Below are positions 2,791 through 7,422 of a DNA stretch of 34,341 nucleotides, one piece after another. This stretch comes from Prosthecobacter sp. Lineage in GTDB: Bacteria > Verrucomicrobiota > Verrucomicrobiia > Verrucomicrobiales > Verrucomicrobiaceae. The stretch spans positions 1 to 34,341 of the forward strand of contig JAUREI010000021.1 of assembly GCA_030827515.1 (NCBI GenBank). Reading direction: 5' to 3'. How positions within the stretch are numbered: the stretch's first letter is position 1; every line of letters begins with the position of its first letter. A program made the translations under genes and the position numbers. The notes under the pieces are model-generated. The model worked only from the letters and a program-made list of their open reading frames with translations, did not search any database and was not told where the DNA came from.

Positions 2791-4017
2791 TTACGTCCCC
2801 ATCAACCCCACCGGACTGAGATCCGCGCCCGGGAAGACCTTGGCGATGTCCCCGGCACTTAGGTCGAAACTGGCGCGCAGGACTTCGGCGAAGACGCGGC
2901 GGAAGTCGGTCTCGGCGTGCAGGCCGCCTGGGCCGGGGGTGTTGAGGTTGAGGTCTTCCTCGGCCTGGATCGGCCAGGAGCCGAGCATGCGGCCGCCGCG
3001 AACGCGGTCGCCGAGGGCCATGAAGGCGAAGCCGCGGCCGTGGTCGGTGCCGAGGCTGGCGTTTTCATAGAGTCGGCGGCCAAACTCGGTGGTGATCATG
3101 ACAGTGAACCGACGGCGCTGGGCGCGCAGGTCAAGATCGAAGGCGGCCAGGCCCTCGGCCAGCATCTGGATGCGCCCGGCCTGCTGGCCGCTGGCACCGC
3201 CCTGGAAAAAGTGAGTGTCCCAGCCGCCGAGATCGATGCAGGCAATCCGCAGGCCGACCCGCGCCTTGATGAGCCGGGCGACCTCGCGCAGGCCGTCGCC
3301 AAAGGGATCGGTTGGATACACCGCACCGTTCTCAGGCGCGCCCGCGCGCCCATGCAGGGCGCTGACCCGCTGGAAGAGATCGAGCGTCTCCACGCCGCGC
3401 CGGCCGAGCAGGGTGACTTCGGCGCCATAGAGCGCCGCCAGCGCCTTGCGCGCATGTTCAGGATTGCCCTGGCGACCCGAGCGCAGGCTGAGGTCATCGA
3501 GTTTTTCCAGCACGCTGACCGCCGGGGCGCCGCGCAGGCACTCGGGCAGGACGCGACCGACCGCAACCGCGGTCAGGGCGCCGGCGGAATCCCCGACTTG
3601 CAGGCGCAGGCAGCGCCCGAGCCAACCGCCCCCGGCGGGCGTGTCGTGCATGGAGTCGCCATGCTCCATCTGATCCTGGCAATCAAAGTGCGAGCCGCTG
3701 GTGTTGTCGACCCCGACCGACTGCACGGCGCCGAAGCGTCCTTCCTTCCAGGCCGCCTCCAGCGGGCGTAGGGCGGGATGCAGGCCGTAGTGGTCATCGA
3801 GACGGATGACCTCTCGCTCCGACAACGCCAGCCCGGGTCGCAGCCGACGGTAACGGTCGTCGGCAAAGGGCGCGAAGAAGTTCAGGGTGTCAGCCCCGCC
3901 GCGCAGGAAGACATGGACGAGGGTGTGACCTTCCTCGACCGAGGCGTCCGCCGCCTTCAGGCCCGGAGCGGCCGCGAGAGCGAGCTTGGAGAGAAGGGAG
4001 CGGCGGGTAAGAGGCAT
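2791..4017 (-). CDS. DUF1501 family exported protein
   Basis: A 408-aa DUF1501 protein. It begins with a twin-arginine-type leader (TRRSLLSKLALAAAP, residues 4-18), so export of a folded, probably metal-bound protein is expected. Visible family motifs are HVFLRGGADTLNFFAP near residue 34, LGGWDTH, TTEFGRR and LGTDHGRG; the His/Asp/Glu-rich motifs look like a metal site related to the alkaline-phosphatase fold. DUF1501 genes are typically paired with DUF1800 genes in Planctomycetota, Verrucomicrobiota and some Proteobacteria, and the biochemical role is not established. It is the last gene of the sigma-factor operon, 46 bases after the DUF1800 stop with a heptad repeat between them. No Shine-Dalgarno is seen. 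Confidence 0.93.
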   Translation of the reverse strand: MPLTRRSLLSKLALAAAPGLKAADASVEEGHTLVHVFLRGGADTLNFFAPFADDRYRRLRPGLALSEREVIRLDDHYGLHPALRPLEAAWKEGRFGAVQSVGVDNTSGSHFDCQDQMEHGDSMHDTPAGGGWLGRCLRLQVGDSAGALTAVAVGRVLPECLRGAPAVSVLEKLDDLSLRSGRQGNPEHARKALAALYGAEVTLLGRRGVETLDLFQRVSALHGRAGAPENGAVYPTDPFGDGLREVARLIKARVGLRIACIDLGGWDTHFFQGGASGQQAGRIQMLAEGLAAFDLDLRAQRRRFTVMITTEFGRRLYENASLGTDHGRGFAFMALGDRVRGGRMLGSWPIQAEEDLNLNTPGPGGLHAETDFRRVFAEVLRASFDLSAGDIAKVFPGADLSPVGLMGT

Positions 4018-4031
4018 GGGGAAAGGGATCT

Positions 4032-4059
4032 CAGATTTCAGATTTCAGATTTCAAATTC
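4032..4059. repeat. Heptad repeat, four units, between DUF1800 and DUF1501
   Basis: Three exact CAGATTT units (4032-4052) are followed by CAAATTC (4053-4059). The tract fills most of the 46-base space between two co-directional operon genes, so it is probably transcribed in the mRNA. Confidence 0.85.
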
Positions 4060-4063
4060 TTGA

Positions 4064-5536
4064 TTAGCAGCGCTGGAAGGCGGGGCTGGCGAGGAGGAGG
4101 CCGAGGTGTTCGGCTTCGCTGTCGCTTCGCAATGCGGCCTGCTCGGTGGCGTCGGGAAGGCGGCCGATGAGGTGGCGGAACCAGGCTCCGTCACCGGCCC
4201 TGGCAAGGGCGCGGCGCAGTGGGGTGAGATCGACGCGGACACCGGGCTGGCGTCCTTCCGCGAGCGCGAAGCCGACGTTCCAGCGCCAGAGCAGCGTGCC
4301 CATCCAGGGCAGTTCATCGTCGGGATAACCGTCGGGGGTGGGATACTGGAACAGGCCGTGACCCATGCGCTGCAGGGGTTCAAGCACGGCCTTGTCGGCA
4401 TGGGTGTCGGCGGCAAGCCCGCGCAGGGCGGTGACCAGAAACTTGAAGGGGCGCTTGAACAACTGGCCGCGACTCGCGGCAAACTCGGGCGAGGCAAAGA
4501 GCATACGCAACAGAGGCCGGATCTCGCCGCCACTGCCTTCAAAATCAGCGGCCAGGCGGGCCACCAGCGACTCGGGCGGTTCGGGACTGACGAAGCGGCG
4601 GCAGAGTTTGGTGGCAATGAAGCGCGCCGTCGCCGGATGGCCGCAGACGATGTCAATCAGCCAGTCGAGGTCGCGCGCGCCGAGGCCCGCCGGAATGCGC
4701 CGGCCGAGCACAACCTTTTCGCCGTCGTCATGCCAGTCAGGCCGGAAGAACGCGGCCGAGGGATTCATCGCCAGGAAGCGTTTGCGGTCGAAGGTCCAGC
4801 CGCTCAGGCAGCGCGCGGCTTCGAGCACGTCCTTCTGGCTGTACCCGCCGTCGACACCGAGCGTGTGCAGTTCGAGCAGTTCCCGGGCGTAGTTCTCGTT
4901 GGGCACGTCCTGGGTGCCGCGGCGCACCCTGTTGGAGACGCCGTCGAGATAGACCAGCATCGCCGGCGAGGTCGCCGAGGCGCGTATGAGATCGCGGAAG
5001 TTGCCGAGCGCGTGGCGACGAATGACGTCGCGGTCATCGCTCGGCTTGAGATAGATGCAGTCGCCCTTCTCGAGGTCGATGTTGAGGTGGTCGGTCCAGA
5101 ACTCGACCATGACCTCGAAGAGCTGTCGGCGACTGTACACCGCGCGCAGCAGGGAGTGCCGGGTGAGTTCGTCGCGCAGCACGGGCTTGCGAAACTCATA
5201 GGCGTCGCCGGCGCTGAAGTAGAGACTTTCGAAACGCTCGGCGCGCAGGTCGCAGGCGCTGTCCTGGATGCGTTCCGGATGCAGTTGCTCTTCCAGCCAG
5301 GCCTCGCGGCCCATGCGGCGCAGCCTGTCCAGATCGCCGGGCCACGGCCCGAAGGCGGCGCGCGAAAGCAGATGGAAGTCCGCATCGATCCCGCTCCCGT
5401 CCGGCGGGTTCAGTCGCTCCGGCACCCCCTGCCCCAGCAGGTCGCGTCCGGCGAGGCTGATGAGTCGGTCGCAGCCGGTGAGGAAAGCCGGCGCCAGGGC
5501 GGCGGTGCGCAGCCAGGCACGGCGGGTCGGATTCAT
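4064..5536 (-). CDS. DUF1800 family lipoprotein
   Basis: A 490-aa DUF1800 protein. The N-terminus combines a twin-arginine motif (TRRAWLRTAAL, residues 4-14) with a lipobox LTGC (C22), so a Tat-exported lipoprotein is predicted. Typical family sequences are HLLSRAAFGPWPGD near residue 54, EVMVEFWTDHLNI, NYARELLELHTLGV and CLSGWTF. The family's function is unknown; it nearly always occurs beside DUF1501, as here. Its ATG overlaps the stop of the upstream 166-aa membrane protein as ATGA (5533-5536), which suggests translational coupling within the sigma operon. Confidence 0.93.
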   Translation of the reverse strand: MNPTRRAWLRTAALAPAFLTGCDRLISLAGRDLLGQGVPERLNPPDGSGIDADFHLLSRAAFGPWPGDLDRLRRMGREAWLEEQLHPERIQDSACDLRAERFESLYFSAGDAYEFRKPVLRDELTRHSLLRAVYSRRQLFEVMVEFWTDHLNIDLEKGDCIYLKPSDDRDVIRRHALGNFRDLIRASATSPAMLVYLDGVSNRVRRGTQDVPNENYARELLELHTLGVDGGYSQKDVLEAARCLSGWTFDRKRFLAMNPSAAFFRPDWHDDGEKVVLGRRIPAGLGARDLDWLIDIVCGHPATARFIATKLCRRFVSPEPPESLVARLAADFEGSGGEIRPLLRMLFASPEFAASRGQLFKRPFKFLVTALRGLAADTHADKAVLEPLQRMGHGLFQYPTPDGYPDDELPWMGTLLWRWNVGFALAEGRQPGVRVDLTPLRRALARAGDGAWFRHLIGRLPDATEQAALRSDSEAEHLGLLLASPAFQRC

Positions 5537-6732: not shown

Positions 6733-6754
6733 GAGAGAGGGTGTTGGGGGGTAG

Positions 6755-6774
6755 GGCCCCGCTGGATCGGGGCC
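6755..6774. other. GC-rich stem-loop between sigma and anti-sigma candidate
   Basis: A perfect 7-bp stem (6755-6761 with 6768-6774, arm GGCCCCG) with a 6-base loop lies in the 96-base gap between the sigma gene and the 98-aa gene. No T-tract follows on the minus strand, so it is not a classical terminator. It could set the ratio of sigma to anti-sigma expression. Confidence 0.4.
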
Positions 6775-6828
6775 GTGGTTTCAGGGTGAGAGAGATCGAA
6801 GGGTTTAAAGACAAAGAACCGGGAACCA

Positions 6829-7422
6829 TCACGAATCGAACTCAGGGCGAAGCAGGCGCCGGGCGAGACTGTGGAGTTTGCGGCGGGCGCGCAGGGTGCG
6901 CATCTTGACCATGGGTCGGCTCCAACCGGTGAGCGCAGCCACCTCGGCGGTGCCACGTTCCTCGAGATCGACCAGGGTCAGCACGAGTCGTTCGGCGGGC
7001 GCAAGCTGGGCAAACAGGCGTTGCACCAAATCGCGCGCCTCCTCCGGTTGAGCCTCGGGTTCCGCACTCCCCGGGGCGGCCAGAAACTCGAGCCAGGCGC
7101 GCTCGCCCTCTCCCAAATCGGCATGCCGCCACTCGGGTCGCGCCCGCTCCGCGCGCAACGCATCGAGACAGGTGCGCACCGCCAACCGGCTCACCCAGTG
7201 CTCGAAGGGCACGCCCGCTCGCTCCTGGTAGCGATCCAGCTTCTGCAGCAGCTTCAAAAACACCTCCTGCACCAGATCCTCCTCGCTCTCCCGCCGCGGC
7301 AAATGATGGCGCACCCAGCGACAGACCAGCGGGTGCAGATGTTCGACGAGCGCACGCGCCGCGGCCGCCTCGCCCTCGCGGGCGCGGCGCACGATCGGCT
7401 GCACATCGAAATCCGGTGACAT
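6829..7422 (-). CDS. ECF-type RNA polymerase sigma factor
   Basis: A 197-aa sigma-70 family protein of ECF size. Region 2 is visible near residues 45-75 (ESEEDLVQEVFLKLLQKLDRYQ) and region 4 near residues 140-190 (LAPAERLVLTLVDLEERGTAEVAALTGWS, then an Arg-rich recognition helix). It would direct RNA polymerase to a specific set of promoters, probably including its own. It is the first gene of a minus-strand operon whose later genes encode two small membrane-anchored proteins, a membrane protein and the DUF1800/DUF1501 pair. A TTGGTG-18-TAGACT candidate promoter ends 9 bases before the ATG. Confidence 0.93.
   Translation of the reverse strand: MSPDFDVQPIVRRAREGEAAAARALVEHLHPLVCRWVRHHLPRRESEEDLVQEVFLKLLQKLDRYQERAGVPFEHWVSRLAVRTCLDALRAERARPEWRHADLGEGERAWLEFLAAPGSAEPEAQPEEARDLVQRLFAQLAPAERLVLTLVDLEERGTAEVAALTGWSRPMVKMRTLRARRKLHSLARRLLRPEFDS

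Follow-up and report, generated by a model that had tools for sequence, protein, structure and literature searches.

The rpoE-rseA-rseB genes of E. coli encode a sigma factor, an anti-sigma factor with one transmembrane (TM) segment and an exported regulator, in that order. The CnrYXH system of Cupriavidus is built from an extracytoplasmic function (ECF) sigma factor, a one-TM partner of about 95 aa and an anchored, helical exported partner, and the pMOL28 record gives its gene order as cnrY-cnrX-cnrH, with the sigma factor last. Here we describe a six-gene locus of Prosthecobacter sp. (positions 2791-7422, minus strand) in which an ECF sigma factor gene leads to a DUF1800 gene and a DUF1501 gene. 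It lies in a stretch of 34,341 nucleotides (GenBank assembly GCA_030827515.1, contig JAUREI010000021.1, positions 1 to 34,341), which as a whole we call the window. We believe, at a probability of about 0.78 and from sequence comparison, that an autoregulated ECF sigma switch controls the DUF1800/DUF1501 envelope genes.

DUF1800 and DUF1501 are found widely but have no assigned function, and DUF1800 is seldom named in the literature that we searched. The excerpt of PMC5122149 that we used places the same DUF1800-DUF1501 pair in one operon beside bacterial chitin synthases, with a twin-arginine translocation (Tat) leader on DUF1501 as in the window, but does not describe a sigma factor, the four-TM partner reported below or regulation. 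Regulation of this kind was not seen in the literature searched, which included partial texts of PMC5122149, PMC6653060, PMC3597751, PMC8103513, PMC7406223 and PMC4982196.

The locus and the closest known systems

All six open reading frames (ORFs) of the preliminary description are present on the minus strand in the order that it gave, and Pfam confirms the sigma factor, DUF1800 and DUF1501. The sigma factor (197 aa, 6829-7422) has sigma-70 regions 2 and 4 only (Sigma70_r2, PF04542, 1.4e-18; r4_2, PF08281, 5.9e-10), which identifies it as an ECF sigma factor. After a gap of 96 nt come p98 (98 aa, 6436-6732), a one-TM protein and likely anti-sigma factor, and p131 (131 aa, 6044-6439), an anchored helical exported protein of LTXXQ type that may be a sensor or co-regulator. 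We refer to these three genes as module A. Module B consists of p166 (166 aa, 5533-6033), a four-TM partner of the two proteins that follow, the DUF1800 protein (490 aa, 4064-5536; PF08811, 1.8e-121, 406.7 bits against a cut-off of 26.1) with a Tat-type lipoprotein leader, and the DUF1501 protein (408 aa, 2791-4017; PF07394, 1.2e-24, 87.6 bits against a cut-off of 27) with a Tat-type leader. Two joints are ATGA overlaps, p98/p131 at 6436-6439 and p166/DUF1800 at 5533-5536. Neither p98 nor p166 has a Pfam match; they were defined from a family alignment with hydropathy and from an alignment of 29 sequences, respectively. A fatty-acid hydroxylase gene found in relatives is called C.

The locus had been described as CnrYXH-like. 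This is true of sizes and topologies, but the window order is sigma-p98-p131, its output is not efflux, and we detected no homology of p98 or p131 to their Cnr counterparts. The hhalign probability was 0.3% for p98 against CnrY (from a single CnrY sequence, so that remote homology is possible) and 3.6% for p131 against CnrX, although the latter two could both be members of the broad LTXXQ/Metal_resist superfamily. A true CnrYXH homologue, with p98 as CnrY and p131 as a CnrX metal sensor that now drives other genes, could draw on the shared sizes and topologies, on the 31% identity of the window sigma factor to CnrH over 143 aa and on a weak Metal_resist match of p131. We consider it very unlikely, given the gene order, the undetected homology, the absence of efflux genes from A, B and C, the absence of widely conserved His or Cys from the exported part of p131, and a sigma factor that is closer to E. 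coli sigma-E (3.6e-12, its best match in the PDB) than to CnrH (4e-5). Since these features fail, we do not file the locus under CnrYXH. Its gene order is nearer to rpoE-rseA-rseB. The likeness to that system lies in the kinds of protein, their order and the sigma-E match; on the other side, only some 50 residues precede the TM segment of p98, p131 is of LTXXQ type and not RseB, and the regulon is another one.

A shared promoter upstream of both modules

We looked within 250 nt upstream of genes for GTTACC, GGTACC or GTGACC followed after N14-16 by CGTT, with 100 dinucleotide-preserving shuffles as the control. This CGTT-type motif is class I; the other classes end in CGTC and CGTA. The motif was found upstream of sigma in 21/21 module-A loci and upstream of p166 in 22 of the 23 module-B loci of the class (shuffle means 0.03 and 0.0), and the prevailing element is GTTACC-N15/16-CGTT in both places. 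The equivalent sites in the window, both on the minus strand, are GTGACC-N16-CGTT at 7468-7493, before sigma, and GTGACC-N15-CGTT at 6046-6070, which lies within the final codons of p131, 37 nt before p166. They are the only matches of the pattern in the window. Both upstream regions could be read in 19 genomes, and in 11 of these the modules are not adjacent. ECF control of DUF1800/DUF1501 is supported because A and B carry the same sigma-type promoter even when unlinked. The preliminary description had proposed looking for such a motif and had argued for an ECF sigma factor with a likely membrane anti-sigma factor as the controller; the common promoter is stronger support for this than gene order alone.

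Genome-wide searches gave exactly 3 matches in the 5.9-Mb genome G025, and these are A, B and C. Three other genomes (G018, G041 and G019) had 7, 7 and 15 matches, and the only recurrent downstream genes were again A, B and C. It could be argued that A and B are neighbors by chance and that the motif has a general housekeeping role, as the modules are unlinked in many relatives. We find this highly improbable: the motif is rare, with 3-15 matches in genomes of about 6 Mb where the reversed pattern has 8-34, and A, B and C are the gene sets that it marks each time. G025 contradicts the idea. The reversed-pattern counts were 25, 25, 34 and 8 for G018, G041, G019 and G025. Stray sites may be avoided in these four genomes, with base composition as an alternative explanation.

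With a tighter motif in 15 genomes, 23 of 39 sites were at A, B or C, 20 of them at A or B and three at C. We rejected the other 16 as background, as they had no orthologous downstream gene in common (18 stretches fetched for 19 sites); two of them, in G038 and G039, fall in a single homologous stretch.

Linkage of the modules in relatives

Our searches covered 96 genomes, the window genome (G000) included. A close p131 (E<1e-18) was found in 22, which we call module-A genomes, and 21 of these also hold a close DUF1800; the exception, G035, is an assembly in 1230 contigs, and in G024 the DUF1800 match is interrupted by a contig end. The two modules are contiguous, at most 1.2 kb apart, in 7 of the 22 (G000, G005, G036, G054, G055, G057 and G060), and G022 is probably an eighth case with a contig end intervening. 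They are 4.5 and 10 kb apart in G003 and G038 and 360 kb apart on one contig in G019. In ten they are on separate contigs, although in G050, where both are near contig ends, they may be adjacent; the remaining genome lacks B. G096 and G099, which came from later searches, are two further contiguous cases. The contiguous order is probably old because it is also present in another family (G060). In G010, a decayed p131 sits just 5' of module B with an intact module A on another contig, and this decayed copy is a fossil of former linkage.

Each module is well kept. The order p166-DUF1800-DUF1501 is intact, by family profiles, in 35 of the 38 module-B stretches fetched, and two more end at contig edges; in G009 (L076) DUF1800 has p166 and a class I promoter, yet DUF1501 is not adjacent. 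The order sigma-p98-p131 holds in module-A stretches, distant versions included, contig ends excepted. The expected conservation of the six-gene order thus stands for each module but not for their contiguity. Loss of the order had been named beforehand as refuting; we believe that the promoter evidence outweighs the partial loss that we found.

Promoter class and the sigma recognition helix

The recognition helix of the window sigma factor is PMVKMRTL (residues 170-177). Residues 171-180 are invariant in 20 other class I sigma factors, and the window departs from them at 176 and 177 only. It is also the sole sigma factor of those compared with G in both promoters. Distant sigma factors have other motifs upstream: GTAACC-CGTC in, for example, G048, G049, G051, G058, G067 and G082, and GTAACC-CGTA in G001, G002, G021, G023 and G047. 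The two modules again agree in G048, G049, G051 and G058, where A and B both have GTAAC[C/T]...CGTC. In the close family the promoter varies with the type of sigma factor.

We scored 53 sigma ORFs, of which 47 have a motif; none was found for L210 (whose start is too long), L213, L214, L376, L378 and L379. Helix residue 174 is M in 23/23 sigma factors with T or G as the third base (GTTACC/GTGACC) and V in 24/24 with GTAAC[C/T]. This split is clean but is a correlation over few independent events. The pairing of T176 and L177 with GTGACC occurs in one genome, that of the window, whose helix is unique among the 53. We dropped a simple rule by which the third -35 base would depend on residue 177, as L215 (M177) has GTAACC and L216 (L177) has GTAACT, with other helices.

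Nine family genomes served as a held-out set. Sigma promoters of the main two classes fit the helix in 5/5 cases (G096 and G099 in class I; G101, G103 and G104 in class II), and module B had the expected motif in 4/6 (G096, G101, G103 and G104). G098 and G099 hold further, more distant sigma-p98-p131-like modules (L376, L378 and L379), for which no GTnACC promoter was detected; two of these have Y and one has F at the equivalent of residue 177. They are probably separate switches.

A different ECF sigma factor might read the shared promoter, with module A merely one of its targets. There are class I sites at B or C in three genomes in which no module A was found (G007, G017 and G045), and these reflect either an assembly gap or another sigma factor. 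However, changes of motif class go along with changes in this sigma factor's own helix, which counts against another reader, and the helix change in the window accompanies changes in both promoters. We judge a different sigma factor to be unlikely.

A fatty-acid hydroxylase gene as a probable third target

Gene C encodes a fatty-acid hydroxylase (PF04116, 5e-30 in G025). We fetched 30 C loci, 15 from module-A genomes and 15 from genomes with no close module A found, and 14 were readable in each set, with G046 (L180) and G050 (L199) unreadable. The exact motif is at C in 13 of the 14 readable module-A genomes (13 of 22 in all), and the fourteenth, G010, has a one-base variant by eye. The 14 readable loci from genomes with no close A found were mixed: class I motifs in G017 (L188) and G045 (L191), GTAACC-CGTC in G051 and G067, GTAAC[C/T]-CGTA by eye in G002, G013 and G047, and no motif in seven, one of which (G042) is a one-base variant of class I. 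C and sigma share a promoter class in G002, G047, G051 and G067. The output had been thought to be dedicated to DUF1800 and DUF1501; both are indeed likely targets, but p166 travels with them and C shares the motif.

The cassette in other phyla

To look at other phyla we took the best 80 of 588 DUF1800 relatives. Within these 80, DUF1501 is next downstream in 77, p166 is next upstream in 43 (several phyla) and 14 have an ECF sigma gene on the same strand no more than about 3 kb away. Three Planctomycetota loci (L308, L311 and L314) have sigma, an FDxRW relative of p98, p166, DUF1800 and DUF1501 in order, and all three have GTAACC-N16-CGTT about 50-65 nt 5' of sigma. In all five Chloroflexota loci with a nearby sigma (L306, L317, L321, L324 and L332), the p98 slot between sigma and p166 is taken by an HxxxCxxC protein; of three tested, two pass the Pfam cut-off for zf-HC2 and the third matches it weakly. 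In the Hydrogenedentota loci L289-L291 and in L298 (uncultured bacterium), sigma is downstream of DUF1501; HxxxCxxC adjoins sigma in L289, L290 and L298 but not in L291, and neither L291 nor L298, the two that were run against Pfam, gave a zf-HC2 match.

The Planctomycetota sigma factors match the window family at 1e-54 to 1e-62. The link between sigma factor and cassette looks to have been recruited more than once, because the matches of those of Chloroflexota and Hydrogenedentota are much poorer, at about 1e-18 to 1e-21. We also observed, in L289, L290, L291, L298, L306, L317, L324 and L332, a p166-like gene directly after the anti-sigma-like gene, and most of these eight loci have a second p166-like copy before DUF1800. 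The first copy hints at a membrane role within the switch itself.

A wider reading, which we hold at about even odds, is that the cassette is an ECF-controlled envelope effector arm built independently in several phyla with different ECF/anti-sigma pairs. The window family would then have a three-operon regulon (switch, cassette and fatty-acid hydroxylase) with two or more joint changes of the -35 code and the helix, one of them in the lineage of the window, where GTTACC would have become GTGACC as the helix acquired A176T and M177L.

The membrane and exported proteins

By hydropathy, p98 has one TM segment at residues 50-79. The family consensus is FDxRW ... GFaTRVLAR ... LGLRA, with PDSRW as the window version of the first part. 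Inspection found no Hx3Cx2C motif in p98, and zf-HC2 is not among the Pfam families matched by 23 p98 members. Its size, topology and gene slot make p98 a likely anti-sigma factor. According to an excerpt of PMC7406223, CnrY has two helices and class I anti-sigma domains average 101 aa; the short part of p98 before the TM segment would fit class II in size.

For p131, hydropathy gives one segment at residues 5-30, and the protein contains LTPEQ. Of the 25 family members, 19 match PF07813 (LTXXQ) at E<=0.1, the best at 1.7e-5, and six match Metal_resist, but the window p131 has no PF07813 match and only a Metal_resist match of 2.4e-4, under the Pfam cut-off. Q60 and Q105, which are in two LTxxQ-like motifs, are invariant across the family. 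These matches and motifs make p131 a possible member of the LTXXQ/Spy/CpxP/Metal_resist superfamily, from which it differs in its membrane anchor, its tie to an ECF operon and the lack of a fold match. The predicted model is helical, with a predicted local distance difference test score (pLDDT) of 90.6, and Foldseek and VIA-align gave generic helical matches only (best Z 4.9), with no CpxP, Spy or CnrX chains among the matches listed; we regard these fold searches as uninformative. No metal-ligand cluster had been visible in p131 before, and the alignment agrees with this: no His or Cys in the exported part is common to 10 or more of 19 close sequences, and the sole Met column (15/19) is Leu in the window.

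We infer that p131 is a periplasmic sensor or co-regulator. It might instead be a co-expressed effector or chaperone, with p98 alone as the sensor, and the Planctomycetota and Chloroflexota loci that we read do go sigma, anti-sigma, p166 without a p131-like gene. However, p131 is directly after p98 in the mapped module-A loci, distant ones too, and we regard a non-sensor p131 as the less probable role, though a real contender.

Hydropathy gives about four segments for p166. In the DUF1800 leader, R5 and R6 form an RR pair that is invariant in 35 sequences, and inspection shows an LTGC lipobox; in the DUF1501 leader, inspection shows RR together with a hydrophobic stretch. The predicted DUF1800 model is confident (pLDDT 86.8, predicted template modeling score 0.89). 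Among solved structures Foldseek gave nothing for it at E<=0.001 (best 0.19) and the best VIA Z was 3.0, which is no proof of a new fold. Sequence searches gave no convincing relative of solved structure for p131 (best E 0.052), p98 (0.2), DUF1800 (0.026) or DUF1501 (0.67). We take DUF1501 to belong among the alkaline-phosphatase-like enzymes.

A proposed mechanism and how it weighs up

In the resting cell, p98 would keep the sigma factor at the inner membrane. The LTXXQ-type p131, anchored and facing the periplasm, would sense an envelope condition and retain or free the p98-sigma complex. Freed sigma would transcribe its own operon (sigma-p98-p131) and the p166-DUF1800-DUF1501 cassette, which in the window would be reached by read-through, from the site within p131, or by both routes. 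In most relatives with module A it would also transcribe the membrane fatty-acid hydroxylase. The output would be envelope remodeling or repair by two Tat-exported proteins, a four-TM partner and, outside the window genome, a lipid-modifying enzyme. The envelope would then be the site of both signal and response.

Several results weigh against ECF control of the cassette as we propose it. The one p166 miss is G046, where no module A was found and B has no motif. G007 (93% complete, L070) has a class I promoter on B with no module A found, and in the held-out set B has no motif in G097, which has no readable sigma, and no motif of its own in G099. A strict matching site before p166 was not found in G061, G064, G080, G086 and G089, which have a distant A-like sigma factor (a contig end intervenes in the p166 upstream stretch of G077). 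Counts are inflated by shared ancestry, so the code changes amount to few independent events, and the window sigma factor departs at 8 of 82 otherwise invariant positions, six of them beyond 176 and 177. The 39 sites of the tighter motif compare with 32 in the reversed control. In the window genome the GTGACC pattern has 34 matches against 25 in the control, because of which its wider regulon is not delimitable, and there is no close C gene. The sensor role of p131 leans on a weak superfamily match. Across the best 80 of 588 relatives, which come from many phyla, the strict motif immediately precedes the cassette in 4; because it is absent in 76, the DNA code looks local to some lineages.

Even so, a defined switch, p166 as a constant membrane partner and a lipid enzyme as co-target together offer a direct handle to induce, delete and assay DUF1800 and DUF1501. 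Unlinked modules with a shifting promoter code are also a natural experiment in how ECF sigma factors and promoter specificity change together.

Other features of the locus

The sigma leader (7423-7467 in the window) looks conserved across module-A loci: about 9 nt past CGTT comes GTGTG, followed by a stretch resembling CATAAACT. This may be a leader element or another promoter. The p166 leaders do not have the GTGTG or CATAAACT-like element. A large ORF on the plus strand (7576-10995) begins about 150 nt from sigma, so that the upstream region with the sigma promoter is common to both. The window genome also has a second, distant DUF1800 gene (G000:C78:10168-11922), which lies within a very long open frame.

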